Below the pieces are notes generated by a model. The model saw only the letters and a list, made by a program, of their open reading frames with translations, was not told the origin of the DNA and did not search any database. 64,000 nucleotides of DNA from Ischnura elegans (Eukaryota > Arthropoda > Insecta > Odonata > Coenagrionidae), in the NCBI RefSeq assembly GCF_921293095.1, contig NC_060257.1, positions 56,270,968-56,334,967 of the forward strand, in the 5' to 3' direction. Below are positions 38,301 to 64,000 of this stretch, piece by piece. Each line of letters starts with the position of its first letter. The first letter of the stretch is position 1. The translations under genes were made by a program, and so were the position numbers.

Positions 38301-41300
38301 TAACCAAATATAAATTATGCATTATAAACATGTATAAATAAATATGACACATGACAAAAAACTTATAAAAATATATACAAGGTAAACATAAAAGAAAATA
38401 TATTGCTTGTTAACTCTCTTTGCACTGAACTTATTCCTTGGGTATTAGTAAAAAAAAATGCCACAGGTAGTTTGATGTCATGTAGCACCTTGGGAAAATA
38501 AATTGTGAAGCTATATTGTGTGCATGTATTTGATTGTTTACATTATTATAGCTTAGCTAATAAAAATGAATACAAATATTTGCACTGTCTCAAAATAAAT
38601 GTAAGCAGTGAAATGTCATGAAATGTAGCAATATATTTAATATGAATAAATAGAAATAAAATGTAGGTATGACAATATGCTACTTCAGATGGCACCCTGG
38701 AACCAAAATTGGTAGTAGGTACTATTTCGAATTACATTCATTCATAGTTTGGCTGGATTTACCCAAAGTTATGCTAAAGGCACCTCTCCATTGAGCCCTC
38801 CTCACTAGTGGCCCCCCCTCCCCGATTTTTCTGATAAGGCATAGCCACTCACATGGGGTAAGGTTCGGAAAAAAGGAATAAACAGATATATGGCTGACAG
38901 CATAAGTTTATGCTTGAATTTTTATGCAGGGAAAGCATAGACAGTTCAATTAAATAAAAACAGCTTGGAGTAAAACTACATGGAACAGTTAAACTTTATG
39001 TCAATAAATCACTTGATGAATACCATTTCCAAAAATAATGTGTAGCCTTAATTCATACAATAAAAAAGACTGTTAACTTCAAAAATAAAAATGTTAAGTA
39101 CTGCTGTAATTGAATGAACTGCTGCTCTTTAAGGCGCCCCTTGGACTGCGATAACCCTAGGCACGTTCCTATTTTGCCTTACGGTTAATCCGGCCTTGCT
39201 AAAATTGATTTACTGTATTATCCTCCATATCTCCCTGTCCCACACCAGCTTTTTCAATTAAGAAGGGTAGTTATTAGTACTTAAAAGTACAGGAAGTACT
39301 TGTCCATTGGTCTTCCTGTGGGGACTTCTTCCTCAATTTATCCTTTTATCATATTTCTCACATAAATGCTGTCTCATTACATGGCCAATCGATTATGTTC
39401 TTCTTTGGTATAGAAAATTAAGTTTCATTACCAATTTTGGATCAAATCACACAATGGAATGAAACTTGAATTTGTTATTGGTGTGTATAAGAAATAAGAT
39501 TTTGAATTTAATCAAAGCTATGAATTCTTCACAAGCTTGTTATCAAGTTTGCCTCTTTTAGTACATATATTTTTCCTATCTTTTTAATTTTTGTAATCGT
39601 ATTTTATTTTTTTTTACAGATGCTCCATGGTGTACTCATTGCCAGGCATTGGCCCCAGAATATGTGAAGGCCGCAGCCATGTTGGAAGAGAAGGCTAAAG
39701 CTGAGGATGGAGTGAAGATTGTCCTCGCTAAGGTAGAGGCAACCGTGCAGACGGAACTGGCAGAAGAACACAATGTCAGAGGCTATCCTACACTCAAGTT
39801 TTTCAGGAGTGGAAGCTCAGTGGAGTATACTGGTGAGTTGATGAATTTTCGTATGAAGATATTGATGCTAACTACAAAGTATACGATTGTTGTGCTGATT
39901 ATACAGACTTATTTATGATAAATATTTTCTTAAGTTATGAAATTGCTTATATAAATGTATATGCACTAAAATTCAATCAAATGTCTGCTGTTAGTGTGGG
40001 TGGTAGTAATACACCTTAAATGTGTCAAATAATCAGTAGGAGGTGGGAGCTAATAGTCTATGGTTATAGATAAACTCTGTGGTATTTTCAAACGAAACAA
40101 TATTTTAGGTTATGAATGAAGATCTAAATTCTACCCAGAATTTTGGGTTGCCTAACCTTTTCACTAGTGACTGCACTCCAATGCCATTATTGCTGTAATG
40201 TTTATCCATTACAAATTTGTGCTAGTATTTAGTCATATGATTTATTTCATATTTTCTAAAATTCTCCTTTTTATAGGTGGTAGGTCTGCTGAAGATATTG
40301 TCAATTGGCTTATGAAGAAGATTGGACCACCTGCAAAGGACTTGACCAGTGTTGATGATGTTAAGGAATTCATCGAATCTTCAGAAGTGGCCATTGTTGG
40401 GTTTTTCAAGGTATAGTGCTACAATTGGTGATTCTTAACATGAAGGAAAAGTAAATTGATATTATTATGATTAGTCTTGATTCAATCTACTTATTGTTTT
40501 TATTTTGAATAATGCATTTTCACTGTACTCTATTCACTTAAGAAAGGAGTACATACCTACTTGTCTTAGTACATTAATTCAATGTTAGACTCATTATTCT
40601 TTATTTTTAATGTGTTAAATGAAATATTTTTTTGCATTTGCAACAGAGTAAAATTTAGATTTCATTTAAGGTGCTTTCTTATCAGTTTACTCATATTGAT
40701 TTTCTTTCTCTTCAGGATCAGACTACAGATTCTGCTAAGGCCTTCCTCCTTGCAGCAAGTAACATTGAATCTTATCCTTTCGGTATTGTTGCTGCCCCTG
40801 AAATTTTCAGCGAATACAATGTAGGAGAAGGAAAGGAAGCAGTCTTGCTCTTCAAGAAGTTTGATGAGGGCAGGAATGACCTGAATGTTGAGGTATGAAT
40901 ATTTTTTCTTAACTATTTACCTCCTTTCCAAATTTGTCATGATCTTGTAGCTGTCTGCTCTTTGCCAGAAATCATGGGAAAGAGCAGCTAGCAATTAATA
41001 AAGAAGAAAGAATTTAGATATCAGGGAATTAATTTGTCTTACTCCAGAAGGAGACCGAGAAATGGTGGAAAATTTGATTTTACAAGTGTTTACATTATTT
41101 GTGTTTTCATTTCAAACAATAATTGATACAGTTAATTTATGTCAATTTGTAGTTCAAGTTCAGTATTTCAGAGTTCATTTGTGTTTCAGTTTAACCGGCA
41201 CATCTCACAGTCTTACTGTCATAGTTTGTTGGTTTAAGTATTGCAAAAATTCAAGAATCTCTGGTAACATAGACTACAATTAATTTTTGTTTTTTTGAAT

Positions 41301-44300: not shown

Positions 44301-47300
44301 ACGAAGGCGCAGTCAAAATTGTGTCGTGCAAAGTGGTGAATTGCTAGAACACATGCGAGAATGTGTGGACGTGAAATGGCAAAATAGCCCCTTTTCTAAT
44401 TTCGTCCATGTATTCGTGCAATTCCATGCCATTTTAGAAATCAATGAATGCAGTTCTAACCTGTGCAATTCTGTCCCCCGTGTAAAACGGCCTTAACAGT
44501 TGCTTCACATTCACAATTTTCAAAAGTCATCTTGCTGTTGGCTGGAACAATTTATTCTATATTTTGCTTAAATTTTAAATAAATTGGTGGTAGGGTGCGG
44601 TGTTGTGGCTATTGTGTTGCCTTCCCACCCAATGGGCCTGAACTCAAATACTGGTGTAGTCAAAGAATTTCAGATATCCGTGCTCAAGTGCTGTGTGGAA
44701 GCCACTTAAAGCACAGCACTCATCTGTATATTATCCGATATTAAACTGTGGTCCCTCTGGTGCCTTCTGTTAAGAGCAGGTTAATGCCGAAACGGGTTTT
44801 CACTCTGTCCTTCCTAAACTTGCCCTCATGGCACATAGCAGTCGATAACCTACTACTGTATGATTTTAATTTTTGTGGATCACTCATCTCCTTTGCTCCT
44901 CTATTTCAGTAAGCTATACAGTAGACTCTCCTTAATACGAACAACGTTATTACGAAGTTCTCGTTATTACGAAGCAAATCGTTGGTCCCGACGAAAAGGC
45001 ATATGCTAGCTATAGTAAAAGAAACGTTATTGCGAAATTTTCGTTTTTACGAAATTACGAACTTCAGTCCCGGTCCCGGCGTCTATAAAATGAACTTTAT
45101 TACGAAGTTCCCCGCATAAGCAACGGCATTTAGGTGCATATTCACTACGCTGAGTTATAATAATCGTGCCACGTTTAAGTTCTTCTCGTGAACTGAGCCC
45201 AAGAGCATCAATTATGGCTCTTTCTTCAGTGTACACGCAACATCATGTAATAAGTTTCATTCCTGTGGAGCCATGGTGACCCACTCGTAAATTGGACGTA
45301 CAGTAAGTGCCGATTCTTCCTACGCGCATTGGATTTACGAATTTTCAGAGATACGAGCATTCAAAAATTTTCAAATTTCGAATTTGGCGCCTTTCGATTT
45401 GGCCGATGCTTCGCGGTTTGGCTTGGCGTAGAGGAACTCTCACTTTGGGCACAATCTGAACAAAGTATCATTGAATCCAGTGTGAATTTAGGAACTGTTC
45501 AGCGTTTCGCCCGTTCATCCTTACCGCAAGTAGTGATTTTTTTCGGCTCCGGCTGCGTCGCACGCCCAGCTAGATCGTTCGTCATATCGTGAGCTACAGC
45601 ACGATTGTGATTCAGTGTTGCATTTTGTAGGACCGTATTTCTCATGATGTAATTTCATACAGTCCGGCCGGTGACAGTAGCCCGATGACGGCACAATAGG
45701 AGGTGCGGATAACCCTACGCCAGCACGGTTTACAGTCAATCGCTGTCCTCCAAAAGGACCCTTGCCTTGTCAACTGCATAAGGCGCACCGAAATATGGCT
45801 GATCATCAAAAAAATCCTTTCTTCGAATCACCAAAACAAGTGATTCTTCCTCTGGGTCCATTACGCGCGGCGTCCCTTCCGCATCCTTTCTTCGTGGAAC
45901 CCTTTGTAGGTGTTTCACTTTCTTAGCTGGCAACCCTGCCCCTACCCCGACCTAGACCATTCTGTGTGTCATCGGACATCTCACAGGGGCCGTGCTGTTG
46001 GTTTATCAACTTAGGAACAAGGTCTTGGAACGCAACCAGTGCGTATATCGGGCTTACTGTATTCGGGAAGATATCAACCCTCGATTGCGTCGTGCCGCAT
46101 TCCTCTGCTGAGAAACGAATGAATTTTCCTGTTTAAATAAATTTCCGCGTAATTTAATCGTGTTTATTAAATACGGTTTTTTTCCGATGATTCCTAAAAG
46201 AAACGTTGATACGAACTTCGTTATTACGAACCTCCAGATTTTCGGTCCCGCGAACTTCGTAATAACGAGAGTCTACTGTATTATTATTTTTATTCAAAGT
46301 GGGGTGGCTGTTGCAGGTTTTATTTCAGTGCATATTAGTAGTGATGAAATTCCAGTTTATAAAAAAAATCTCAGTTAAAGATCTAGTAGTAAATCAATGT
46401 TTGTGTGTTACGTTATTTTTGAGATGTGATTGTTGTTCCCTTGCACATTTCTTCATAAGTATGTATGATGTAATTAATAAAATTCAGAAATGTGGGTGAA
46501 CTTCTCTCAGGATTCCCACCGGGTTAAGAACTCAATTTCTGCCAGCGTTTTGAGCTCCAACTGGGGCTAATCCTCAAAATAAAACAACATTCAGCAGCCC
46601 TGAAGATTAGCCCGTGGTCGGAGCTCGAAACATCAGCAGAAATGGAGTTTTTAATCCGGAGGAATAAAGAGGGAAATTTACCCATATAATTTGCAGGGAA
46701 AGCATCAAATCTTATTTAATTCAGAATTCACAGGATGATATTTTGTTTACCTGAGCTAATCTGTTCTTGATATTTCGAATGGATTAACCCCTTCCAATTT
46801 GATTAATTTTCCGTATATCGTGCTCCTATTCTTTATTCATTTCTTTCTGTGGTTCTCTTTTAAATGGTATGTGATGAAATGATATTTTGTAATTTGTAAT
46901 AAACGTAGAACCATGAAATAAAATGTGATTATTAATCATGAAGAACACAGCTATTGCAACTCTAATAAAATCATTTTAATCCTTCCAATGCATAATGTTT
47001 CATGAAATATGAATTATTTATGTATACTATGTATGTTTTAACATAAGTTTTCAAAATAATTATATTGTTCCTCTAAATAGTGCTAAAATTGTGAAAATCC
47101 GATGACGAGATACACTTGTCATTGCGCAGTTTGGCATCGCAAGTTCATGATGAGATAGACTCGTCATTACAGCGCAAGGGGTTAATTTATAACCAGGTTG
47201 ACACGAGGAATATTGTGCTATATTGTATTGAGCTTATTTTCTCATATCAATCTTTTTTTTTTATTTTTTTTATTTTTAGCCTCACCTGCTCTCTCAGGAT

Positions 47301-50300
47301 CTTCCTGAGGATTGGGACAAGGAGCCGGTCAAGGTTCTTGTGGCCTCGAATTTCGAGGAGGTTGCTCTCAGCAAGGATAAGGATGTACTGGTCGAATTTT
47401 ATGCCCCTTGGTGTGGACACTGTAAGCAGCTTGCTCCTATCTATGAGAAGGTTAGTATGAGAGGTCTATACCAAGTAAATGTTCCTTTCTTACAAAACTG
47501 GTAATATTCCTATATCAGTGAAACCTCTTTTTTGCACCCCTCTATTTTATGATTTACATCATTTTGCAAAAATGTTATAAGTTCCCTGCTGGTACCTTGT
47601 ATGAAAATTATTCCTGAGTTTTACGCTCTCCTTGATGTAAATATTTTAGGTGGTTTCTTTGAAGGTTTTAGCATGGATGTGGTTCACTGTTATTTTTTGT
47701 GGATGGAGCTATTTTTATTATCATGTGATCTGAAATAATGAGAAGGGCCAAGTTGTATGTTGTGTCGACACATTCATTAATTATCCGGTTTTTGATTTTG
47801 GATGCCATAACGTTGCCTTAACTCAGTCTTGAAACCAGAGTGTAGATTTAGATTAAGTTAGCAAAGGTTTCCAACTTGGTGAGAGAATCCATCTTGTCAA
47901 GCATTTTGACATATGTCCAATTTGCCCTGGTGAAATATCATGGGTTGGGACTGTATTCAAACGAAAGTGAGCTATATTTATCAAGATTGAATACATTAAA
48001 ATAGGGGGTGCTTTATTCTCAGCATTATGGTATATTTTACTTTTATATGAGCTTTATTGTCCTTTGTCATTGCTACACAATGGGCAATCAATGCTATTAA
48101 TTAGGACTGAAGTTCTTTTAATCCACTTGAAGCTATTACATTTTTGCAACAAAGGGTCAGTTCAGTTCTCAGAGACAAATTTTCTTTATCTTTGAATTGG
48201 AATCAGAACCAAAGCAAATAGCATCCGTGTGGCAATAATTTCTGTTGACCTAGTGTGTGAAATTTTCTCTGGCACAATTTACATACTTAAGTAGTGTGAT
48301 TTTATGGAGCCAATCACTTTTGAGATATTTGATGTTATTTTAGACAGTTTTCAAAGTACCACAGCAAGTATCATTACTTACTATTTATTTTTACCTTTTT
48401 CCCCAAGGGAAAACACTTATACACCCATGTCTCGTATAGCGCAAGGGATGCGTTCCTTGGGGTCTTTGCGCTATACGAATTTGCGTTATACGAGAGCGTT
48501 TTAACATAGGGAAGATAGGGATGCGTTCCTGGTAGCATTGGTCTTGGGTATTGAATTTCCTCTAAAACATCTATATTCCCATAAAAAGCCTTAGAAAACA
48601 TTATTTCTATAAATATTTATAGTTTAAAACATCTTTAAAGATAGTATTCACGCATTCAAAGACTTTTATTCACGTTAAAAAAAATTCTTACGTGCTTTCG
48701 AAATTCCATCCTGTCGTGCGGGTGGGCTAACATCTGCTATCTCAGGGGATCGTAATGCGTTGCCGGCAGTTGATGATTTTTCAAACTAGTCTAAAAACAA
48801 CTATTGTGTCACCCAGGCCCTTTTGTCTCTCATCGAAATGACAGGAAAATGCTACTTTAAATGCCATTTCATAGCTAGCGGAGTTTATGAATGATAAATC
48901 ATTTTGATTTGAAGTCCTCCGAGTCATTAGCAGCTACGTGAAACAGTCTTTAAATGCCTTGAAACCTGACCCAGGTTTTCCTTCCCTGAAAATGAATGAA
49001 CGAGAATGCATTCTTTTCCAAAATAATATCGTCTCATCAACACTAAAAACTAGTTGAGGGGGAAAGGAGCCACTTTCAATAACAGCTTGGAGTTCATCAG
49101 AAAATGTTATGGTGGCTGCGCTATCAACACTTGCAGATTCACCTGATATCGCCGCACTGAAAATACCTGCTTGCCGTTTAAATTCTGGAACGAACCGGAG
49201 CTTTCACTTAATGTCTCGGAGCGATTACCACTCTCGTCTTTTTGTACTGATTCACCATGAACTTTCCGTATGTGTAGACCGCTTGGTTGAAGTTGGTGCG
49301 GCTGAGGTCACTGATATTTTAGCTTCGTCTTTATTCAGAATAAGGCATCGTGAGTTTAAACTTCCGCGCAATATCGCTTTGACGCTCTCCATTTTCAAAG
49401 CAATTGACCTCTCTCAAGTCCTCTTCTAGGTTAATGGTTTCTCTTGATAAATTCTTGATTTTTCTACACGCATTCCTATTTTTTGCCATATTCTCTTGGT
49501 TTTTACTCTGTATGGCTCTATCTAAATCACCTTCTTCTGCTGAACTGTATCCCTGAGACGCAGAAGGGCTATGACTGCGGGGAGGGAACGAAGCCATTGT
49601 GTTTAAGACTCTATAGCGGACCCTTTTATGTGTTGATGCTATTCATGCGCAACTCGGTCACCGCTCCATTTCTCCCCCGTGAATACCGATGACCTTGAAG
49701 GCTTTAGCGTAGACTCTCTACCTGGAAGTCAATCGCCCGGTAACCTACGACGGCAAAAATACGTCTCAAACCGTATTGCTGAAAAAAACTCATTTCCACT
49801 AGCCCCACGCTTAATTAACGATCTAAATTATTTATTATCATTCTGTTAAGGAGACGAGATAAATCTTCGGTAGGCCGGCTATCTAGACCCAATGACGAGT
49901 AATACTTTTGGAAATTGCGCAGCAATGAATTTCGATTAATATATAAACAAAAAAGAAGATTTGAGGCAAGAAATAATATCAATATGGGTAAATTGATAGA
50001 AATTTCGTGTGTACTTAGCGCAAGTTCACGTTTTATCACGAGAGCGTTTAAGATTTTTGATTAGGCTACACTGCGTTGCAATGTTTCCCCGAGGAACGAA
50101 TTTGCGCTATATCGAAATTGCGCTAATCGAAATTGCGCTATACGAGACATGGGTGTATAAAGCATTGATTTCAAATTAAATTAATTATTTCAAAATCATA
50201 GTGTTACAAAATTTAACAAAAAGAATTATTATGAAAAGCATCAAAGAAATATAACTATCTAAACAAATATAACTATAAAAAGAAGTATACATTTTTATTG

Positions 50301-53300
50301 CTTTGAACTAATTCAATGATTCTTCCAAACATAATATTAAATTCACGTAGAAGCAATGCATTTTTTGCAGGCTATTAATATATTTTGAAAATTTGTTAAT
50401 GAAAATTTAGCCCATTACTAAGAACCCTAGCTAGGAACAGTGCCCAGGAAACGAACTGTTATTACAACTGATTAAAATTGTGGACCAGCCCATCCTTATT
50501 TTTTTTAAATACACACATGGTAATGATAGAAAATTTTCTTTTTAACAGTTGGGAGAGAAGTACAAGGACCATCCTAGTATTATCATTGCCAAGATGGATG
50601 CCACGGTTAATGAACTGGAGCATGTAAAGATTGCCAACTACCCTACCATCATGTTGTACACCAAAGATAACAATAAGGTATGTTACTCCATTAGAATTTT
50701 TAAACCTCATAAGGTTAATGAAGTATCAGTGAAATTCCATAGCCTTAAGGGAATAATTTTTTGGTTTAATTTGACTAATTTCATTTTTCACTATTCATAC
50801 AATTAATTTAGTTCTCATTGGAAGCTTATCGACTACTGTCATTTTTCATACCATGGCTTTTCAGCTGAAGCATTCATAGATTGAATTCAGATTATTGTGT
50901 GAAGTTGCCGTGGTTATTATATCTCTATATTAAAATATATTCTCTTGTATCCAATTGAAATCAGTAAATACAGGTGGTCCTCAACCTTTATGCAATTCCT
51001 AATTTTGCTTGCCTATTGTTCACCTTTTGCTTGACCTATCTTCCTTATAATCAGGCTTGAAAATTTTTAATGGAAAATGAAATAATTTAAATATTGCACC
51101 TTTAAAAAGTTCAAAGTTTAAAAGTTCAATTTTCTTGTAAGTGCATTGGATACATGCCATTCAGTTAAACTTTTTGTGTTGTCTTCAATAAGAGCTCAAT
51201 GTCATTTTGTATTCTTGAATATTCAAGAGTAACATTAATGTTGCACCAAATTAGCATGGAACTTAAATGTTTGGCTTTTCTAAACATCTTCAGGAATTCT
51301 CTGTATGTATAAGTTGAGGTCTGCCTGTTCCAATATTCTTGTGTGAGAAATGCTGTCCATAAAATATGAGAAATCACTCATGACTGATCACACAGCAAAA
51401 ATGTTGATATTAATGTGTGTGCTGACCACTCACTAATGGCAATTAAAGCCAGGAATTCAATAAGCTCAAGTCAATTGAGCCATGAATTGAAAAGAAAAAA
51501 CTTTCGTTGCACACAGTTCAAGCTATCAAAGCAACAATTTAAAACTTGTTCTCATTAATAGTTATGTTACCCAAACTAATACCCATTCAAAGAAAATATT
51601 AAATCAACGGTTATAGAAGCCCCTTAAGCAATGAAAAATATACATTTGCAATTCCTACCTAGTGGACTTGTGCCATTTAGGAAATCATGGCTTCAATTTT
51701 TTCTTGGGCTTAAATCCCGTCGATATAAGAAAAAAACATTCTTTTTTCAGGGAGGTTCCGTTGTGGCTATGCATCCAAAACAAATACTTTTGGCCTATAT
51801 TTTTTGATAAAAACTTTGCTCCCCTAAATGGCATTCTTTGGTGTTATGAACCATTAATCAGGAGAGCCCTGGAATTTTTCATAATTGAATGCATTTATGT
51901 TTTAATAAACACTTATTTTTGCAGTGCAAGTGGACTTTTGTGCTGTTGTCATGTAACTATCTTGTTCTGGTCTCGAGCATTAGTATGCTTACAACTGGGA
52001 AAGTAGGAAAGTGAGGTGCCTAGATAGATTTTTGACAAGATTCTTACAATATATAGACCATATGTGTTTCTTTGGAAGCAAAATTTATGTTCCAGTTGTC
52101 ATTTAGATATTTTTGCCAATTTGAAAAGCCACACCATAACAGCACAGAGATTTTTTAAAAAATTTTTAAACACGCAATCCTAGAGGGCATTTTCAGTCAA
52201 GAACTGATCTAGAGGAATACGTACGAAGCTAAGGAGAAAGTATCAAAGTAAATTGTTTACTGTGTAATAGTTACAATTGCATCAATACAATCAACTTATG
52301 ATTAATTAACAATTTGTCTTCACAAAGAGTATTTCAGGGTATAATTGTGTCCTACCAGTAATGTAATAATTGTGTACGTGATTGGAATCGATTTGGAAAT
52401 CAAAGGTAAAATTCATTCCCTCTATAAGTGATAATCTCATCAACTAGTTTATTATGAATTACTGAAGACTTTGTTCTGTGAAGGACAACTTGCTTCAGTA
52501 CTCCTATTTTACATGGCCCTCCAATTCCACAGGTTTGGGAAGAAAAAGTATAGAAACATGCAACTTTTTGTCTGACTTACCCTTTCAGTTGAGAATAGTA
52601 ATATGTGATGCACAAAGTATTGTTCATGGTTATGGCAGTCCCAGTTTGTAAAAAAATTAATTTTAATTTGTTTTTAATCATTGCTATAAAACTGTGCATC
52701 TTATTTTGCTTTGCTGTGCTGAGTTATGAGGAACAATGAATCCCTAAAAAATTCCTTAAATAGTGAAGTTTTATAGGAAGGCCAAAACATATATGCAGTT
52801 CTTTTGTGGCAACCTTATGAGTTGAATTTTAATCCGGTTTCCATGTGGGTCAGGTATTCTACTGTCATTCAACTTGTTCTGATATCAGTTGGAGCATTAG
52901 TATGCAAATGATTGGAAAAAATAGGAAAGTGAGGTACCTAGATTAAATTTTTTACATGATTCTTACACTACATGATTTTTAAGTTCCCTTTTACATGATT
53001 CTTAAGTTCCCGTTCTCATTTACATATTTTTGCCACTCTGACAAGCCATACCATAAGAGCCTAGAGATTTTTTTTGTAATTTTTAAACACTCAATATGAA
53101 AACCTGACCCAGAAGAATTCATCTCAAGTCAAAACAAATTTTCCGATGACATTTCCATGCCTGTATAATGTTGAAAGCCAGTGTGTTGGGTTGCCTGAGC
53201 TGCATTATAACTAGTACGTTTGTTATTTAAAGGTTATTGTTTTTGTGTTGTAATTGTATTTTGCATATAATGTGTGCTCCCCTTGATTCCATTAATCTTG

Positions 53301-56300
53301 GCTTCATCTTTGACAGCACATGGTTTATCTTCCTCAAGTGTGTTGACCATTTGGACATGCAGCAGTGATTTTTAAAAACATTTTTCTTGAATTGTGGTCT
53401 ATGTTGTGATTTTTCAGGGTATTCAGTATGTTGGCGAAAGAACACTGGAGGGACTTACGAAATTTGTTGAAACTGGTGGAGATTACGGAAAAGAACCCAC
53501 CGAGGTAACTGAATGCGGATGGCATCATTTTATATAGGGGCTTGGTGTTTTTTTTTCTTTGCTGGAATGCCATCTATTTTTATTATTTATTTGGTGAATG
53601 CTCTCTTTACATGCCAATCCTTCTCTCCATGGGCAATATTTATCTTTAATCTATTTTTTCATAGTCTGGCTTGGTAGAATTTTCAAGCTGTAATTATGCT
53701 GCACTGCATAGCATTACCCTGCATAGCTCCGTAAGCTGTAAATTAAACTGTATGTAGCTCATGTACAATGGGATGGATATTCTTCTATTTTGTCCGGGTA
53801 TTTATTGCTCAGTCTGGAAGGCTTGGGTATGATTTTTTTCCCCAGGATATCCAGGAACCTTCATCATGCTCTTCGTCACCAGTTTTTTTAATGTAATACT
53901 TGCATGAAAATCCTGTTACTCACTTACTATTTTCTCTTTTTACTTTGCTGCCTTTTTATCCTACCTTTGCTGTACCTCTGTGATCTCGGAAATAATCTCT
54001 GGATGTGGGTCTTGTGAAAAGGCTTTGGTGTTTAAAGGCCAGCGAACATTGGAAGCTCTGTCTGACTTCGTTGAGGGAAAACCTGAGAAGGTGCAGGAGG
54101 TAAAAAGCCTTCTAGACCATAATTTGGTGAACTGTCTATTCTGAAGTGGATTTGTTTATGAAACTACTTTTTCTCTCAAAGGGACCATTGAAAATAAATT
54201 AGTAGAATTAGGAGTGGATTGCGATAATATGGTGAACCGTTTAACAGTTACATAATGACAGAAAACGTTTGTATGAAAAATCTTCTCGGGATTGCGCGCG
54301 GGTTAGATTATTTAAGAGCGCCGACATTTCGGGTACCGACTCGCTACCCATTCTCATGGCTACACGGAGTAGCCGTGAGAATGGGTAGCGAGTCGGTACC
54401 CGAAACGTCAGCGCTCTTAAATAATCTAACCCGCGCGCAATCCCGAGAAGATTTTTCTAAAGTTATTCGCCGGGAAAGTGTAAAATCATACGTAATGTTT
54501 GTATGGTCGATAAAATTTTATTATTTGATCACCTAGGTTTTGACAATTTTTTTCATATTTAAGTTATTGCCTGGTAATTGATATAATTTGTCAAAAACTA
54601 GGTTAGGTAATGGTAAAATTCTGAGGGTTATAGTGACGTCTTCTATCATTATGTTACAGAATAGGTATTTAATTGTATTTAGTTTTTGTTGATTTGAATA
54701 ATTAGGGCGGGGTCTTTGATTGTCTTAGGTCTGCTATGTTGCTCAGAGAAGTTTTTGGTCCCAACATCATTCTGTTTGATGAGAACATAGGCAGATCATT
54801 CGATGTGAAAAGATCATTTCACTTCTGGTGGTCATGTGTTTCAAGATGGAGCTAAGACCTTGCATATTGAACTTGATTTAATGGAATGAATAAGACAAGG
54901 ATTGGACTTAGCTAAAATACCTTTTTGTGTAACGTTAATACAAATGAAAACTATTCATGAAGAAGTAATGTAAACTAGGTTGCAGAAGGAATTTGATAGT
55001 AATAGTCTCTTTTTTGTGCTCATGTTACTTCTATAACTTTACAAATTGTAAGGCATTAGAAATTTCTAGGGAAGGAAGCCCACAAATCAATAATTGTTTA
55101 TTCACTATCACTTTTTGTAGGCATGTATTCTTTGAATTGGAAATCAATTGTAGTTTTGAATCAAGGTGTTACTGTTCCTTCAGTAATATTCTAAAATATG
55201 AGAAATACTTGAACAATTTTAATGCTTTTGTTGGTATTTATACAAGCAATCATGATCTTTATGTATCCTTAATAAAGCCAGGAAGAATATAGTTGTGCAG
55301 TGGTAACTGTTAACGTTTTCATCAGAAATCCTCTTGGAAATCCAGTCATGTTAAATGTCTCCAGTACTTAAGCTTTGTTGAATCTAATGATCTGAATGAT
55401 GTTGTGACCAATGCTTCACTATACACTATATACTATGTAGCAACATATCTGATGCCAACAACAATTGAAGGTATGGGATGGTATTTCATTCACGGTTTCT
55501 GACATTTCAATTTTTTGGCCATTATCAGTCATGTTGGCCTTCATTGCAAAGTGATCATGTTAGTTTTCATTTTACTGGATGGGTTTTTAGATGCAGCTGC
55601 TATTTTCTGTTTGCTGTGAAAGAAAAGAATGGGCTTATATTGGAAATGATTAAGTCTTGAATTCTTATAAAGATAATCTTTAGCTACAGGGTGTGTCCTG
55701 AAAGTAGTAGGACTAAGTCGAGAACAAAAAATGTATTTCTCATATAGGTACGTCGCTTCAAAAATCTTCAAAGTAGCCCCCTTGGGCATCGACACAACGC
55801 TGCCAGTGAGTTTTCCACGCAGCATACGCTTCCTGGAAGGCTGACTCCGGGATGTCCTTTACAGCGCGCGTCACGGCCTTTTGGAGAGCTTCCACCGATC
55901 CGTGGTGACGCACTTTCAGAGGGGTCTTGAGCTTGGGAAAGAGAAAGAAGTCCGGGGGGGCAATATCCGGGCTTTAGGGTGGGTTTCCACGCCGTGTTTT
56001 GCCAGTTAGTCAACGACAATGAACGCGGTGTGGGCCGGCGCATTGTCATGATGAAGGATCCACGAAGCGGCGATGGCTGGTCGGACGCGGAAGATACGTT
56101 TTCGCAGTCTTTCCAGTACTTGCACGTAAAAAGCTGCATTAACGGTTTGCCCTGGTGGCACAAACTCACTGTGGATGACACCTTTCGAATCGAAAAAGCA
56201 CATGAGCATGGATTTTTGCTTCGATTTGGACATGCGAGCTTTTTTGGGTTTCGGAGATGTCGCTGTGTGCCATTCTGCACTTTGCCGCTTCGTTTCTGGG

Positions 56301-59300
56301 TCGTATTCAAACGTTGAGCGGTTGTTCTGCTCATGGCACTATCCCTGTAAGCTGCCTTGATGAGTTCATGGGTCTCCTTGCCGCTTTTCTCGAGTTTAAC
56401 GCAGAATTTCACTGCGTAACGCTGCTCCACTAAACGTTCCATGACGCACCGTGACGAGGTCACTTGACAGAGGTCTGGAAGAAATACGATTTACACTCCG
56501 CAAGAGCTCAGAGCCGACTGCCGCGTGTTCGCAGCGCTTTGTTAGAGTCCCTTCCACCACCTACAACCCAGAAAACTCCCGTCCGACCGTCCGCGTGTGT
56601 GGGAAAAAATCAGTCCTACTACTTTCAGGACACACCCTGTATCATGGGATCTCTGGGAGGCGACTTCTCATCATCATGGGGTAACAGAGAATGTTTCTAC
56701 TCAAACCCACTTATCTTTTATGTTAAACATTGTAGTAATTTTTGTTTATATTAATCATTATTATGCAATATTTGTTTTTAACATAAAGTCATTCTTCATA
56801 AATGAATCATTCATATTCACATTTTATCTTCTCAGAAACTATTTACCTATAATTTTCCCATTCCATTTAACTTTAAAATGAAACCTATGGTTAGGCTGAG
56901 GCTGATGCAATAAATCAAGTGTAATTATTTAATTTTCCTCAGCTATGAAAGTGTTGGAAGTTTCAGATACCTCTTAGTTAGGGAGGGTTTAGTTTACCAA
57001 AACTCCTAGCCTTTTTGCCTGTGTAGGTGAGCATAAGTTGGGACCAAGGTTGTGGAATAAATTAGGTCTCGGGTTTGATGAGTGAAAACTAGGGAAGTGA
57101 GATTTGTATGAAACAGGATGTAGTTTCCTGTGACAGACTTAAATTAGAAGAATTTATTTACTTGTTGTGAGTTTGACTTCCTTACTTGTAATTCTACAGT
57201 ACTTATCTGGAGTTTAAGAGGTGTTAGAGTATGTTCTACTAACTGAGCAATTTCCAATTTGTTTATTTGTACACCAAAGGATGATGAAAAAATATTTGAT
57301 TTAGTTGGGATTAGAACCCGGATCTCTCAATAGCCGGTCAGTTGTGTAGCCAGTTACACCACCAAGCAATTTTCTCAGAGCAGACTTTGGATGGGTTTTT
57401 CCTTCTTGTTCAGTAAAACCCATCTTGAAGTTCGCTTTGAGAAAATGGCTTGGTAGTGTAACCAGCTAACACACCTGACCGGCAACCAGGAGATCCGGGT
57501 TCAAAACCCGGATAAGTCAAATATTTTATCATGCCTAACTTCATCCTTTGGTGTAATTAACTTTGCACCCGCGCACATGACTGCGTGCAAAATCACTTTT
57601 TTCTGCAGTGCTTTGTTTATTTATGCTCCAAGCAAAACTGTTGTGGAAATTACTAAGGTAGTATGAGAGATTTTCCTCCGAGTTGTATCTCTAGCAAGCC
57701 AATTTGTTTTAGAATACTGAGAGGAGATAACCGATCTCAAGTGCAGGCCTTGTCATGGAGGCAGGTGACCTGTGGTACTTAATATTTAACATGCTTCGCT
57801 TAAATGAATAACTTTTTGAACCCTTTAAAACTCTTAAAATGTGTGAATGAGGAGTTTACCAGAGGCTCAGGGTAGCAAGTTTTTCTTTCGTAATTTAACA
57901 AATTAAAAAATCTCAGTCAGCCTACTGGTGTGCTTTATTAGCGGTATGTTGCACTTTGAAGCTAAAGTTATTTAAAAATCGATTTATAACTTTAAACTTC
58001 ATTCTTGTATTATCTTCTTTCCGGTGATGTTTCCCTTACAAGTCAATTGCATTTATTTTTTTAATTAATGGTCAATTATTGCTCATACTGGATATATAGG
58101 CAGGGATTCAAGTAAAATACTTCGACTGCCATACTCAGTAATTTAAATGCACATGGCATCTTTTAGCCTATTTCATATGTTGCTGTTGTGCCTATTCAAT
58201 CAAAATTGTGATGCATCTGAGATGATTAGGAAAGACAGGTGTACTTCATTATTTAAACAATAAATTGCTTTAGAGTACTCTGTTAATTCATTGAGGTAAT
58301 ACATAAATCATGTCATAATACTATCCTTGCCATCAAGCAAACTGGTGTATTCTGTAATTAAATAGAAACTTCATTTGTTAATGTATATAACCTTGGAATT
58401 GGCGTACTTAAATGTTGTTGTTGAATTAACTAACATCAAAGGTGGTTGGTTTACTTGGTGTAAACATTCAGGTTATCTGTCAAATTATTGATCATTATTT
58501 TTACTTGTTGGTGCTTTTAACGTGAGTTAACAACAGATGCCTCTTTCTCTTGTGGCTCTTATCATAGAGAGCTGTCAGATTTTCAGAGATCCTTATGTCC
58601 TCTCCCTTTCCTATATTTGTAATTTGTAAATAACTTTTTATCCATTTATTCATGAGTCTAACCTCCTCAATATGTAGATTTTTTAAAAACGTCTTATTAA
58701 CTTCTTTTAAATATGCATGCTCCTATTTTATTGTGTACTTTCATATGTTCTAATCAAAAGATGAGCATTGTAGTGAATTGAAATTATTTGTTGCTAAAAC
58801 TTGGTTCGTAGTTTATCTTGTATTGGTGTTAGATGTTTTGTGTAAACATGTTATAGATTGGTATTTGTCCTTACAAATACATACATATAAGGATAAATGT
58901 ATATGAAAATGATAAGATTGCATGCTTATTCTTGAATCAAAAAGGCTATTTAATTTGAAAACATGAAAGAAAATTACTGGGAGTCAATTAAATGGAAGAA
59001 AATCTTTCCATTCTATTCGGTTTTTTAAAGACAACAGTTTCGCTGGTGTTACAGTCAGCGTCTTCAGGTCGAAGGTATGACCTTACCTTCGACCTGAAGA
59101 CGCTGACTGTAACGCCAGTGAAACTGTTGTCTTTAAAAAACAACAAACGCTGTGAAAAACCCGAATAGAATGGAAAGATCATCTAACCAACGCCACGAAA
59201 ATCTTCGAACCTACATTACTTGGAAGAAAGGTCGGAATACTGGTGTTTTGATTAGCTTGGATACTGACTACTCGGAAGCAAATTTTTGTGTGCAAGCTTG

Positions 59301-60488
59301 CAAAAAGTAGGGTGTTTTGCTCAGTATTTTGAGGCTTGCCCTTGATAATTCTCTTACCAATGGTTAAACTTCTAGCAAAAGGAATCCAGTATTACAGATC
59401 TTATTTCCATTTCTTTCACCTCTAGGGTTTCTCTTTCCTTAAAGAAATTCAATTTTGTTGAACTATGATTTTTCAAGTTTTACCAATCTTGTAAGTTGAG
59501 CTATAGAAAATCTTCTCATTCTTTTGTTCTAATAACAAAGCTTTTGCCTAAATTATTGTTCTCTGCTGTAGCTTTTCAATGTTGTTTTTTCTCCTAAGAC
59601 TTAGCCTCAGTAGCCTGTATTAAGAAAAGCTGATTGGATATTAAAGTTAGCAGTTGACTGAATAGTTAATCACACTTAGGTTGAATTGACCAATTGTTAG
59701 ACTCTGGGAGAAGTAGCCTAGTTTTTTTCATTTAAACTAGTTTTAAACATATGTTTTCGGTGACTTATACCATTTTCATTGTATGAACTACAAAGTAGGC
59801 TAAGTAGGGAGAGAACATAGATTGAGCTAGGTAAAACTGAAATTTATCAGCTGTCAATGATTCTTGCTAGGAGATTTTTAATTTTGATGGGAGCTCAAAG
59901 CTGAATAACATTCTATAATTGACAGCGTAGAAGGAGAGCCCTGATTGAGTTGACATAAGTTAAATTCATATTTTTCCTATGGTTCTCAACCCACACAGCA
60001 CACTCAAAACTTATACCATATTTAAGTTCCATAAACGGATTCTTTAAATTGTAAATAATGCATAAAATCATAGTTTATGTACGCAACATGTGAATAATAT
60101 ACAAGTGGTATAAATGTATATACATAATAAGTAACATAATAGGTGGAAATATATGGTGTAATGTACTCATAAATTGCATTTTTGTTTGCATATGTTATGC
60201 CTTTCAATTCAGTGCATATATTCTGCATATAATGCACATATATTGCAATGTATGGGGACATTATACCATTTATATGCACATTTGATACCACTTACGTAGC
60301 ATGATATTTTTTAAATATTATGTACGTATTATTCTCTTTGTGCTGTGTGGGTTCATTTTATTTGGAGAAGTTTCATATTAGGTGATCAATAAATTGTCTT
60401 GGCCTAAAAAAAGTTTTTAAAATTTTATTTCCCAAAGGAGGAGGAAGAGGATGAGGATGATGATGCTCCCAAGAAGGACGAACTTTAA
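26229..60488 (+). CDS. Pdi: Protein disulfide isomerase (PDI / P4HB type), ten exon positions, 507 aa with exon 9a
   Basis: Exons 26229-26382, 39620-39832, 40277-40410, 40716-40892, 42490-42696, 44024-44224, 47280-47450, 50549-50677, 53418-53504 (9a) or 54022-54099 (9b), and 60438-60488 join in phase to 507 aa (504 with 9b), against 508 for human P4HB. Order: signal peptide (about 1-19), thioredoxin domain a with WCTHC (Cys56, Cys59), domains b and b', domain a' with WCGHC (Cys407, Cys410), acidic tail and KDEL. It oxidises, reduces and isomerises disulfides in the ER and is the beta subunit of prolyl 4-hydroxylase in animals. The first active site is unusual (Thr for Gly). The cis-Pro motif YPT is present in both catalytic domains. 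The promoter has an ERSE. Confidence 0.95.
29027..29097. repeat. Foldback with hammerhead-like GAAAC-NNNN-GTC core
   Basis: Arms begin ATTTACACGACC and end GGTCGTGTAAAT. The plus strand has GAAAC-TATG-GTC at 29078-29089 and the minus strand GAAAC-CTTG-GTC. The minus strand also has CCGATGA upstream of GAAAC, one base from the ribozyme box CTGATGA. It may derive from a Penelope-like element. Confidence 0.6.
30010..30184. repeat. tRNA-like foldback, copy 1
   Basis: GTGACTAAAATAATTCGACTT at the left pairs with AAGTCGAATGATATTGTCAC at the right. Each arm contains a pol III B-box-like word (GGATTTGAACCC and GGATTCGAATCCC), so the element looks like two tRNA-derived SINE heads fused head-to-head. 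Neither half folds into a full, standard tRNA by eye. Confidence 0.6.
30684..30985 (+). repeat. Tandem duplication, two ~151 bp units
   Basis: TCTGCGGTGATCTCT begins units at 30684 and 30835. Both share AATGGAAAATGTTCGATG and TTTCATACCA then TCTCCTAATTTGAGCTGTATT. The second copy ends in GCCGGTTCGAAGTCTACCGG, a B-box-like word, suggesting a tRNA-derived SINE tail. Confidence 0.7.
32045..32195 (+). repeat. GGGGCGTCCATT-type repeat end (partial element)
   Basis: Starts GGGGGGCGTCCATTTATTACGTGAG and runs through CGTGAGATTTGGCTCGACCCCC. The reverse complement of 34890-35042 has the same words in the same order, so this is one end of the same MITE family without its partner end. Confidence 0.65.
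33356..33525. repeat. Direct repeat, 93 bp offset
   Basis: CGTTCCGGTCC starts at 33356 and 33449, each followed by AAAATCGTTCA and ending CGTGTA/CGCGTA-A/GACAGGCCTA. Two diverged tandem units. Confidence 0.65.
34740..35042. mobile_element. MITE with GGnCnTCCATTAATT ends, ~303 bp
   Basis: Left end GGGTGCATCCATTAATTAATTGAGG; right end, in reverse complement, AGGGGCCGTCCATTAATTGCGTG. A run of 15 G sits near the left end. A partial relative is at 32045. The superfamily is not assigned because no clean target duplication is seen. Confidence 0.65.
36258..36480 (-). repeat. Inverted relative of the 30560-30780 repeat
   Basis: The reverse complement of this segment resembles 30560-30780: both contain words for FDPDxALGxLxIWPxKLGLR in the same reading frame, and TTTCATCGTAATCC. 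This is a dispersed repeat family seen in both orientations, about 6 kb apart. Confidence 0.6.
39620..39832 (+). CDS. Pdi: PDI exon 2 (first active site, WCTHC)
   Basis: 213 nt after a T-rich tract and TTTACAG, with donor G|GTGAGT. It completes [15 protein letters not shown], where the usual PDI sequence has WCGHCK, then [14 protein letters not shown] with the cis-proline, and SVEYTG. It carries most of the catalytic a domain; Thr57 replaces the usual Gly between the active-site cysteines. Confidence 0.95.
40277..40410 (+). CDS. Pdi: PDI exon 3 (end of a, start of b)
   Basis: 134 nt, acceptor TTTTTATAG, donor AAG|GTATAG. It encodes [19 protein letters not shown], the classic end of the a domain, then [12 protein letters not shown] and VAIVGFFK, the first strand of the b domain. 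Ends in phase 0. Confidence 0.95.
40716..40892 (+). CDS. Pdi: PDI exon 4 (domain b)
   Basis: 59 codons, phase 0 at both ends; acceptor TCTTCAG, donor GAG|GTATGA. It includes [17 protein letters not shown] and [12 protein letters not shown], both typical of the PDI b domain, which has the thioredoxin fold without redox cysteines. Confidence 0.95.
42264..42373. repeat. tRNA-like foldback, copy 2 (110 bp, in PDI intron 4)
   Basis: Left arm TGAAAAATCCACAGGGAAAA pairs with the right arm ending TCTGTGCATTTTTCA. Both arms contain CCTTGACCGGGA-TTCAAACCC or its relative, a B-box-like word. It is the same architecture as 30010-30184 and 57271-57554, shorter. Confidence 0.7.
42490..42696 (+). CDS. Pdi: PDI exon 5 (end of b, start of b')
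   Basis: 69 codons, phase 0; acceptor TTTTTTTTCCAG, donor AAG|GTCAGT. It includes [18 protein letters not shown] and THLLFFF, the b' domain that forms the main peptide-binding site in PDI. Confidence 0.95.
44024..44224 (+). CDS. Pdi: PDI exon 6 (domain b')
   Basis: 67 codons, phase 0; acceptor TTACAG, donor AAG|GTGAGA. It encodes [22 protein letters not shown] and [17 protein letters not shown], then [11 protein letters not shown] leading to the x-linker. Confidence 0.95.
44256..44493. mobile_element. Harbinger-type MITE, copy 2, 238 bp
   Basis: Same family as 24552-24785: shared words include GTGAATTGCTAGAACACATG and GGCAAAATAGCCCC. Right end CCGTGTAAAACGGCCT, left end degraded (TTGCCTTTTTACACGG). 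TAA flanks both sides. It sits 31 bp inside PDI intron 6. Confidence 0.8.
44919..46278. mobile_element. Tigger/pogo-like DNA element, 1360 bp, decayed
   Basis: Ends CAGTAGACTCTC and GAGAGTCTACTG, with TTATTACGAA-type subterminal repeats on both sides and flanking TA. Short minus-strand frames (such as 45933-45736) are all that is left of any coding capacity, and no catalytic motif is recognisable. It lies in PDI intron 6. Confidence 0.75.
46519..46659. repeat. Foldback with CTGAAGA and GAAAC boxes
   Basis: CCGGGTTAAGAACTCAATTTCT pairs with AAATGGAGTTTTTAATCCGG at the right. The right arm carries CTGAAGA (46600-46606), a stem-forming AGCC...GAGCT, and CGAAAC-ATC (46627-46634), the order of hammerhead ribozyme boxes. 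Confidence 0.6.
47280..47450 (+). CDS. Pdi: PDI exon 7 (x-linker and second active site, WCGHC)
   Basis: 57 codons, phase 0; strong T-rich acceptor (TATTTTTAG) and donor AAG|GTTAGT. It encodes [22 protein letters not shown] and [18 protein letters not shown]. This is the a' catalytic site with the standard CGHC, in contrast to CTHC in exon 2. Confidence 0.97.
48422..50155 (-). mobile_element. Tigger-like transposon, 1734 bp, with broken transposase
   Basis: Ends CACCCATGTCTCGTATAGCG and its reverse complement, with flanking TA. On the minus strand, 49597-49331 encodes a CENPB/pogo-type helix-turn-helix ([15 protein letters not shown]). Further along, near 49000, [13 protein letters not shown] shows the first catalytic Asp of the DDE domain, then GFKAFKD. 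Stops and frameshifts interrupt it, and the rest of the catalytic domain is missing. It lies in PDI intron 7. Confidence 0.85.
50549..50677 (+). CDS. Pdi: PDI exon 8 (domain a', cis-proline)
   Basis: 43 codons, phase 0; acceptor TTTTTAACAG, donor AAG|GTATGT. It encodes [25 protein letters not shown] and [14 protein letters not shown], with the cis-Pro of the a' domain. Its end is the junction to either version of exon 9. Confidence 0.95.
51920..53130 (+). repeat. Direct duplication within PDI intron 8, ~920 bp offset
   Basis: Segments near 51945-52160 and 52865-53090 share, in order, GAGCATTAGTATGC, AGGAAAGTGAGGT-CCTAGAT, GATTCTTACA, and CCATA or CACCATAA then AGAGATTTTTT. These are diverged duplicates upstream of exon 9a. 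Confidence 0.65.
53418..53504 (+). CDS. Pdi: PDI exon 9a (last strand and helix of a', alternative version 1)
   Basis: 29 codons, phase 0; acceptor GATTTTTCAG, donor GAG|GTAACT. It encodes [20 protein letters not shown] then GDYGKEPTE. It matches the usual PDI sequence YxGERTLxGxxKFxExGG, so this is the canonical version. Confidence 0.93.
54022..54099 (+). CDS. Pdi: PDI exon 9b (alternative version of exon 9)
   Basis: 26 codons, phase 0 at both ends, donor GAG|GTAAAA. It encodes [19 protein letters not shown] then KPEKVQE. Aligned with 9a over 20 residues about nine are identical (G-RTLE-L--FVE), so it is a duplicated exon and not chance. The acceptor AAAAG is unusual: its pyrimidine tract (53941-53980) is some 40-80 bases upstream, with no AG between. 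Use instead of 9a gives a 504 aa protein; use of both would also stay in frame. Confidence 0.75.
54276..54456. repeat. Long near-perfect foldback (88 bp arms, 5 nt loop)
   Basis: Arms 54276-54363 and 54369-54456 are reverse complements with three mismatches and a loop ACGGA. The words GCGCGCGGGTTAGATTATT and GGGTACCGACTCGC mark each arm. GGGTA...TACCC-GAAAC-GTC in the right arm resembles hammerhead stem II plus core. It starts 177 nt after the donor of exon 9b. Confidence 0.95.
55687..56639 (-). mobile_element. Mariner element, 953 bp, internally deleted
   Basis: 28 bp perfect TIRs (CAGGGTGTGTCCTGAAAGTA...), flanked by TA. The minus strand encodes mariner transposase: the N-terminal helix-turn-helix part ([18 protein letters not shown]), then, after a jump, [26 protein letters not shown] and [10 protein letters not shown], which holds the second catalytic Asp. 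The segment with the first Asp is missing and the halves are in different frames, so it is inactive. It lies in the PDI intron between exon 9b and exon 10. Confidence 0.92.
55757..56463 (-). pseudogene. Broken mariner transposase
   Basis: Reading starts near 56463 ([14 protein letters not shown] shortly after), loses the linker and first DDE Asp by deletion, then shifts frame before the [10 protein letters not shown] motif near 56030. The C-terminal end near 55757 is again in another frame. At least two frame breaks plus the deletion preclude a working enzyme. Confidence 0.85.
57271..57554. repeat. tRNA-like foldback, copy 3 (284 bp)
   Basis: ACACCAAAGGATGATGAA at the left is matched by TTCATCCTTTGGTGT at the right. 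Inner arms contain GGGATTAGAACCCGGATC and GATCCGGGTTCAAAACCCGG, both B-box-like. GGCTTGGTAGTGTAACCAGCTAA in the right half resembles a tRNA D-arm/A-box region, so a tRNA-derived head is likely. Confidence 0.75.
59002..59179. repeat. Foldback with hammerhead-like boxes on both strands
   Basis: Outer arms ATCTTTCCATTCTATTCGG and CCGAATAGAATGGAAAGAT; inner arms pair over ~50 bp. The plus strand has CTGAAGA (59094-59100), CGCTG/CAGTG stem, GAAAC-TGTT-GTC (59120-59131). The minus strand has CTGAAGA, a perfect CGCTG/CAGCG stem and GAAAC-TGTT-GTC. Confidence 0.75.
59988..60353. mobile_element. MITE with AACCCACACAGCACA ends, 366 bp
   Basis: 15 bp perfect TIRs (AACCCACACAGCACA and TGTGCTGTGTGGGTT); the interior is AT-rich with many CATATA/TATGCAC words. 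No clear target duplication. It ends 84 bp before the acceptor of the last PDI exon. Confidence 0.8.
60438..60488 (+). CDS. Pdi: PDI exon 10 (acidic tail and KDEL)
   Basis: 16 codons plus [19 protein letters not shown]. Acceptor TTTCCCAAAG, phase 0. The acidic run is the low-affinity Ca-binding c region of PDI, and KDEL is the ER retrieval signal. Both versions of exon 9 end in phase 0 and join here in frame. Confidence 0.95.
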   Translation, partial: EEEEDEDDDAPKKDEL

Positions 60489-62080: not shown

Positions 62081-62606
62081 TTTCATTGATCCAGAAATTG
62101 AATTTTTCCCTCGGTCAACTACTAAGCTTGTGATTTACGATGGAAACCTATGTATGGTGATAAGCATCATAATTTTCTACCTTGACTTGTGAAATTTTAG
62201 GCCTTCCTCCTCTCTATGTATTAGTTGAAAAGTGTTCCCTGTGATTCTGTCATTGTCTGAAAAGTTTACTTGGGAAGCATTTCCCCAGGCTGCATTAATA
62301 CTATAGTCCTGAAATCATTAAGACTACTCATGGGTAATATATCTGGTGTAGATGCTTAACACTAGAATGATCGTGGGTGGGCAGTTGGCTGCTCATGTTT
62401 TCATTCATACCCTACTTCATTATCTTCCCATTTAGGAAGCTCAGTTTGTCAATCGTTTTTTGTTTTGCACCAAATAAATCAAAAATGAAGTTAATTTTAG
62501 GGAGAATGTTTCAGGTCACGGGTGATGACAGCTTTTGCCTATGATGACAGTCTGGTCATTGCATTGTACTTATATTTCATAGTTCAATTTGGATCACTTT
62601 GTAGCT

Positions 62607-62725
62607 CTGACAAATATTTCTCGGGTTTGCATCCAGGTTAAAGCTTTTATGTAAAAAAAGGCTTAACCTTTTTAGGCTTACATAAAAGCTTTAACCTGGA
62701 TGCAAACCTGAGAAATATTTGTCAG
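62607..62725. repeat. Perfect-type palindrome, 119 bp, downstream of PDI
   Basis: CTGACAAATATTTCTCGGGTTT at the left pairs with AAACCTGAGAAATATTTGTCAG at the right, through GCATCCAGGTTAAAGCTTTTATGTAA. ACTTTGTAGCTC occurs on each side (about 62597 and 62757). Confidence 0.85.
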
Positions 62726-64000
62726 AAGTATTCACCAGGAAAAACTTAAATCGTTTACTTTGTAGCTCGTTTGTATGCATCATGCCAAATATAGCATGTA
62801 TGTACCTTATCACACACTCAAATAGTATAATTATCACCATCATGTCCTCAATACTGTTTCTGCATACTTCATCGTTTATGTGAGGGGAAAGGGCAAAACT
62901 ACAGTATGTTGCATCATGTAGTTTCTCCACTAAATATTTCATGTACTGTGACGATTGCTCCTAAAGTTGAAATGTGCTGGCCAGGATTGTGAGTAGCTAC
63001 TTGCACCCAAGCTATGCACTTACGCACCTCGGCTACCTCTGCCTGCCGTTTAGCCTGCAGAGCTGCCTAAGTATAGATATTTCCAACAGAAGCATGGCTT
63101 CTGCAGGAGAGGGTGGAGGGGAAGCATCTATTAGAGGAAGTAAATGGTATGGGCCATCTTGGTGGCTTCACAGAGTATGATATTGCTTTAAGGGTAAGGA
63201 TTGTATTTTGGTGGACCATATCTGTTAAACGATCATATATGTATTGAAACAAACGAAATTTTGGCTTCATTTTCACGGTCTTCAAAAGGGTAGACTTAAA
63301 GTCCTGAAAAACTTATTTGGGTCCTTGATACATAAAACATTTTTTCAAATGAAGCAAATATTACCACATGAATATCAACTTCATTTTGGTAATTTAAAGA
63401 CTAAAAAAACACATGTATAAATAATGCTCTTCCTAACGAATTTATAATAAGAAGTTATAAATTCATAATCAGAAGAGAAAAAGGAATGAAGACAGGAAAG
63501 TTAAAATACATATCGAAGTGGATGTACCCAAAATGGAGGGTACATGCTATCAGCATGAATACTATAAGATAAGGGGTAAAGTAGGAACAAAAGAAGAACA
63601 GTCGCTAGAGCATGAATCATAAATACTCTACTAACCCTACGGCATGAATCCAGATTTTTTGTGGAAGTAGCAGCACTCATTTTGTGTAAAAAAGAGATAA
63701 ACTATAGAGGTGTAAATTTCATCATCTATAAAAAATAATGGTTTGGACCAAAGCCTAGTATAAAATTTATGGTTTAAGCCATGACACGGAGTTTATTTTT
63801 TTAAAGACGAAAGAGACATTGGATTACATAGAAACATAGCTGTGACTGCTGCTGGATGGAAATCAATTTATGCTTATTTCAAATGCAACCGCTTCTGAAT
63901 GAGAAATTTTCAAATTCAAAAATTGCGCGCAATCAATCGATAGTTACGCAATGCGTGTTTCATTGTTTTAATGGTGTTTTGTCGATTTTGAATTTCTTGA
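62726..64000. other. Intergenic right end
   Basis: AT-rich; no exon-like frame, TIR pair or RNA gene recognised. Confidence 0.4.

Follow-up and report, generated by a model that had tools for sequence, protein, structure and literature searches.

Each PDI gene is commonly held to make a single constitutive protein, and diversity is attributed to gene families. The locus described here lies in a 64,000-nt stretch of Ischnura elegans DNA (the window, whose first letter is position 1), and it raises the question of whether one PDI gene holds two versions of the exon that closes its a′ domain and, if so, whether the second is a working exon. The gene lies on the + strand and begins, as far as placed, with an a domain (WCTHC); pieces resembling b and b′ domains come next, and the a′ domain (WCGHC) and a KDEL end complete it; the exons that we placed run from 39620 onwards. 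With a′ aligned to human PDI, exon 7 (47280–47450, + strand, its end taken from the codon count of the translation) starts the domain with WCGHC and ends in “APIYEK”; exon 8 (50549–50677, + strand) supplies its middle and ends in “YTKDNNK,” phase 0; and the coding part of exon 10 (60438–60488, + strand) carries the acidic tail, KDEL, and the stop. Exon 9, in between, occurs twice, as 9a and 9b.

Among solved structures, the top match of the predicted a′ part with 9a is human PDI 6i7s at 228.4 bits, and for this part alone the best entry of any other family is TXNDC5, at 166.5 bits. Judged from its a′ domain, the order of its parts, and KDEL, the gene is of the PDIA1 (P4HB) type: PDIA1 is the best structural match, WCGHC is present in the a′ domain, and the protein ends in KDEL. 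The a domain departs from PDIA1, having WCTHC where CGHC would be expected. This active site, at 39620–39642, would usually read WCGHC, and the change could alter its redox behavior. A genome search with the a′ domain as query found no second PDIA1 gene (14 matches, best 21 candidates scored). The closest a′ match outside the gene, among the best 21 candidates scored and with 9 of 37 loci inspected, is 59% identical over residues 3–57 and belongs to what is presumably ERp57. Another gene in the window as the owner of 9b is ruled out, both of the only two + strand WCxxC matches belonging to the PDI gene.

Exon 9a (53418–53504, + strand) has 87 nt and 29 residues, supplies the final strand and helix of a′ in their canonical PDI form, and ends at the donor GAG/gtaact. 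Exon 9b (54022–54099, + strand), the alternative version, has 78 nt and 26 residues, and lies downstream of 9a across an intron of 517 nt. Both are preceded by AG and followed by GT, and both lengths are divisible by three. The earlier note had proposed a duplicated exon 9, phase 0 at both ends, in which 9b has a donor of its own, and on each of these points it is supported: the donor is a GT after GAG (GAG/gtaaaa), and either exon joins in frame, at phase 0, both to exon 8 and to the KDEL exon that starts at 60438. The 18-residue cores align without a gap, with identities at 9 of 18 positions; at the nucleotide level 31 of 54 positions are alike, and 8 of the 18 third positions are equal. Against 9a, the core of 9b scores 47, with a runner-up of 25 among all six-frame 18-mers of the window. 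The top score in 30 mononucleotide-shuffled windows was 31; scoring there was restricted to 18-mers that lacked a stop and carried two or more of seven chosen core residues. By these controls on the translated DNA, the likeness of the two cores is well above chance.

The likeness is found at the level of protein. Local alignment of 53200–53800 with 53850–54400 gave a score of 33, against a mean of 30.6 (sd 4.5) in 200 shuffles, and since these stretches include both exons, the exons themselves are inconspicuous as nucleotide sequence. In the whole genome (1.72 Gb, E ≤ 10), the 9a peptide found only itself and the 9b peptide only itself; as neither search recovered the sister exon, similarly diverged copies elsewhere could escape such a search.

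The two exons are adjacent, homologous, and of the same phase, and have the same boundaries, as is the case for tandem-duplicated exons. The likeness could, however, have another source, in that 9b may have been imported from another PDI-family gene, for example a TXNDC5-like one; this would concern only the origin of the exon and would be compatible with its use as described below. Against the segment STKFKGARDLDSLTSFVE of a TXNDC5-like gene, 9b scores 45, near its 47 against 9a, and the nucleotide identity of 9b with the third TXNDC5-like segment is 32/54, as against 31/54 for 9a with 9b. Nevertheless, 9b stands next to 9a, on the same strand, in the same phase, and with the same two exon boundaries, while two of the three TXNDC5-like segments sit, by eye, in exons that start further upstream (the second segment starts at the same place). 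We consider import quite unlikely, and because of the position and shared boundaries of 9a and 9b we infer an origin by tandem duplication.

What would the exchange do to the protein? By alignment to human PDI, exon 9 supplies the strand and helix that close a′, the elements being named after the thioredoxin fold in general, and the earlier suggestion that 9b replaces these elements is supported by the alignments. The alignment of isoform b with human PDI 4ekz still extends as far as FVEG of the a′ domain, at 149.8 bits as against 163.3 for isoform a; with the fungal-type PDI domain 2djj the scores are 95.7 and 103.5. For PDILT the order is reversed (110.6 for b, 103.0 for a), and the scores lie close together for PDIA3 3f8u (149.4 and 151.2) and for TXNDC5 domains 1 (47.3 and 49.0), 2 (62.2 and 59.8), and 3 (53.0 and 54.2). 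Lower scores for b against PDI, with near equality against PDILT, PDIA3, and TXNDC5, mean that the residues of the fold have been kept and that the PDI-specific likeness has gone down.

One of the residues kept is close to catalysis. The R of GERT/GQRT has index 464 in 4ekz and, by our own count, the first cysteine of CGHC has index 400; this cysteine is Cys397 (PMC9676403), so the arginine is Arg461. Arg461, which lies within the swapped exon, tunes the active-site cysteine. In 9b, Arg461 is retained and its neighbor Glu460 becomes glutamine. Movement of Arg120 is described as modulating the second oxidation step (PMC9598436). The contacts described for prolyl hydroxylase on a′ are the CGHC loop and the cis-proline (PMC9676403); they lie outside exon 9, and loss of the complex is therefore not predicted. 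The spacer before the acidic tail also changes, from a net charge of −2 in 9a to 0 in 9b (GKPEKVQE), and the charge of the whole exon from −3 to −1 (own counts). The “basic KPEK” of the earlier note thus goes too far: with a net charge of 0, the 9b spacer is less acidic than that of 9a but not basic.

The acceptor of 9b also stands out. It is preceded by an AG-free zone of 137 nt (53883–54019, + strand), compared with 13–67 nt at the other nine of the ten acceptors placed in the gene; only 5 of the 3288 AG-to-AG gaps in the window are that long or longer. Within the zone lies a pyrimidine-rich run of 61 nt (53911–53971), counted so that single purines are tolerated when two pyrimidines follow, and this is the longest run on either strand of the window, the next having 36. 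Near its 5′ end is TACTCAC (53917–53923), a branch-point-like motif matching TACTAAC at six of seven positions, with its A (53922) 100 nt before exon 9b. The run stops 48 nt before the AG of 9b, and the last 20 nt before that AG contain only 8 pyrimidines, the lowest number among the acceptors placed (12–18 at the others). The elements of a distant-branch-point layout, a long AG-free zone, a long tract, and a candidate branch point far from the AG, are thus all present at 9b. A zone of at least 100 together with a run of at least 40 occurs a single time on the two strands of the window, although these thresholds were chosen after the site was seen; “longest run” needs no threshold. The alternative of an upstream acceptor for 9b, with its AG at 53881, gives an exon of 217 nt that is out of frame. 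The accessibility of the tract is unremarkable: in the RNA fold, mean unpairedness is 0.33 for the 9b tract and 0.40 before 9a.

Values for comparable acceptors are given in PMC5224494. Repressed exons there include TPM2 6b (AG-free zone 131, tract 106), TPM1 6b (88 and 67), and U2AF1 Ab, with a zone of just 31 and a tract of 25; FYN 7a has 61 and 43, and TPM1 6a, which is activated by U2AF, has 104 and 6. Across the values in this source, repression tracks the length of the tract better than that of the AG-free zone, with one exception. The source also describes repressed acceptors as less paired, and in this the fold of the 9b tract is unlike them. By analogy, 9b is probably a regulated exon that is off by default. 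Its acceptor, pyrimidine-poor beside the AG, appears to depend on the distant branch point and the long pyrimidine tract, and PTB-type or U2AF-competing proteins could, again by analogy, switch it.

Is 9b maintained, or could it be a decaying relic of a duplication, disused and open by luck? Chance alone leaves 16% of random 78-nt stretches open at the composition used, and the few pyrimidines beside the AG (8 of 20) would suit a disused exon. Yet the AG and GT of 9b are intact, and with the thresholds chosen the window contains its acceptor layout just once. We simulated two branches in which 9b evolved neutrally and 9a took silent changes only (12,000 runs at seven divergences). A run counted when 9b kept its frame open and its splice dinucleotides intact while showing 9/18 or more identities and no more than 8/18 third positions equal. 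This joint outcome arose in ≤0.375% of runs at any divergence, and in ≤1.5% when the splice-site condition was dropped; a simpler one-branch model, leaving aside splice sites and the last eight codons, gave ≤0.39% of 20,000. The neutral simulations, whose base is 18 codons and a simple model, support constraint on 9b, and we regard a relic as unlikely.

The frame stays open through the 9b donor, and if this donor were left unused, 14 codons would lead to a TGA, with an AATAAA (54193–54198, + strand) about 50 nt beyond it. 9b could then be an alternative last exon, with polyadenylation after the AATAAA at 54193 yielding a PDI lacking KDEL and possibly secreted. But the GT that follows GAG in 9b matches the 9a donor in place and phase; read-through of the 9a donor likewise soon meets a stop; and the 6338-nt intron after 9b contains six AATAAA, so one nearby is unremarkable. 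We think this use of 9b improbable.

Whether 9a and 9b exclude each other is a separate matter. Together they add up to 165 nt, in frame, so the reading frame does not enforce exclusivity, and the 517-nt intron between them, long enough to splice and of ordinary length, presents no steric barrier. Both facts would also suit a cassette exon that is added to 9a and does not replace it. A doubled strand and helix would, however, be expected to disturb the a′ fold, and the fold residues retained in 9b fit replacement; addition is accordingly very unlikely in our estimation. Mutual exclusivity is plausible, the argument being that a single domain would have no room for this strand and helix twice over.

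Known mechanical causes of exclusivity were also considered. No U12-type signal was found, CCTTAA being absent from the AG-free zone before 9b and the intron having GT–AG ends; given this and the 517-nt intron, steric exclusion and a U2/U12 mismatch are both unsupported. Pairing of the 9a–9b intron with its two neighbor introns was no better than in shuffles, 27 of 60 of which reached the observed score for each of the two partner introns, in a test that was ungapped, crude, and limited to one species, and so weak (four repeat stretches were masked in one intron). Docking/selector pairing for 9a and 9b was thus not detected in the ungapped intron pairing test.

The surrounding introns have features of their own. 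Intron 8 contains a duplicated segment of ~320 nt, with copies at 51947–52272 and 52863–53172 (both + strand) that are 76% identical and separated by some 917 nt; when 251 nt of the segment was searched against the genome, these two places alone came back. As the neighboring sequence has no such likeness, either a short duplication or an intronic element under constraint may be at hand. The duplication suggested that intron 8 might hold a third exon 9, now decayed, and this was rejected: beyond the duplicated stretch the score was 29, against a mean of 34.6 (sd 4.5) in shuffles. A foldback repeat lies 176 nt 3′ of 9b (54275–54457), with 89-nt arms that are 97% complementary and a 5-nt loop. 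It is multi-copy, with at least 82 match rows on both strands of the genome among the best 40 of 1550 candidates scored, and it could affect splicing or editing. Further into the intron after 9b, an element at 55685–56641 has perfect terminal inverted repeats of 30 nt and, on the − strand, mariner-like pieces of a transposase spread over more than one frame; more inverted-repeat stretches follow at 57284–57532 and 58997–59184. Another inverted repeat is seen by eye at about 62600–62730, downstream of the gene.

Taken together, we consider it likely that 9b is a genuine, old, and selectively maintained alternative exon 9 of a PDIA1-type gene, probably off by default. The homology, frame, splice dinucleotides, acceptor layout, and retained fold residues are read directly from the DNA. 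Putting 9b in place of 9a would give a′ a new last strand and helix, with a new spacer before the acidic KDEL tail. The likeliest effect would be that fold and ER retention stay unchanged, with the active site of a′ or its partner surface adjusted to particular cells or conditions. The use of 9b in mRNA, the mutual exclusivity, the regulator, and the biochemical effect are what we infer. A bolder extension, possible but doubtful, is that in odonates, and perhaps more widely, splicing swaps the Arg461 module, so that one gene yields two ER PDIs whose a′ domains differ in their partners or redox kinetics, and a distant-branch-point switch selects between the two according to tissue, stage, or ER stress. 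If true, a basic ER enzyme would be tunable by splicing, and the two isoforms would form a natural pair for probing the surface beside the catalytic arginine with fold and ER retention kept.

In the open literature, as far as titles and abstract openings go, we found no published description of a swapped PDI exon, and no equivalent of 9b in other animals; subscription papers and database annotations fall outside this search, and an annotated isoform may exist. For Drosophila l(2)01289, PMC3827500 lists an unclassified sex-biased event.

Several known systems resemble this locus in part. With human P4HB/PDIA1 the gene shares an a′ domain with Arg461 and an acidic tail, 9a giving the canonical form. 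A parallel in layout is found in the tropomyosin exons 6a/6b of TPM1 and TPM2, which, as presented in PMC5224494, are likewise tandem homologous exons with a long AG-free zone and tract at 6b. The protein is unrelated, though, the zone of the activated TPM1 6a is also long (though its tract is only 6), and the regulation of 9b is a prediction. U2AF1 Ab/3 is similar in another respect, since there too homologous exons, arisen by duplication, exchange a short piece of a housekeeping protein (PMC5224494), but the zone and tract reported for Ab are far shorter than those of 9b. In insects, the docking/selector exons of Dscam, 14-3-3zeta, Mhc, and MRP1 are also described as tandem homologous exons (PMC6071210); they differ in the competing intron pairing, which was undetected at 9a/9b. 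Set beside these systems, 9a and 9b are a fresh case of a known phenomenon, alternative exons duplicated in tandem, and the gene is one in which it was not expected.
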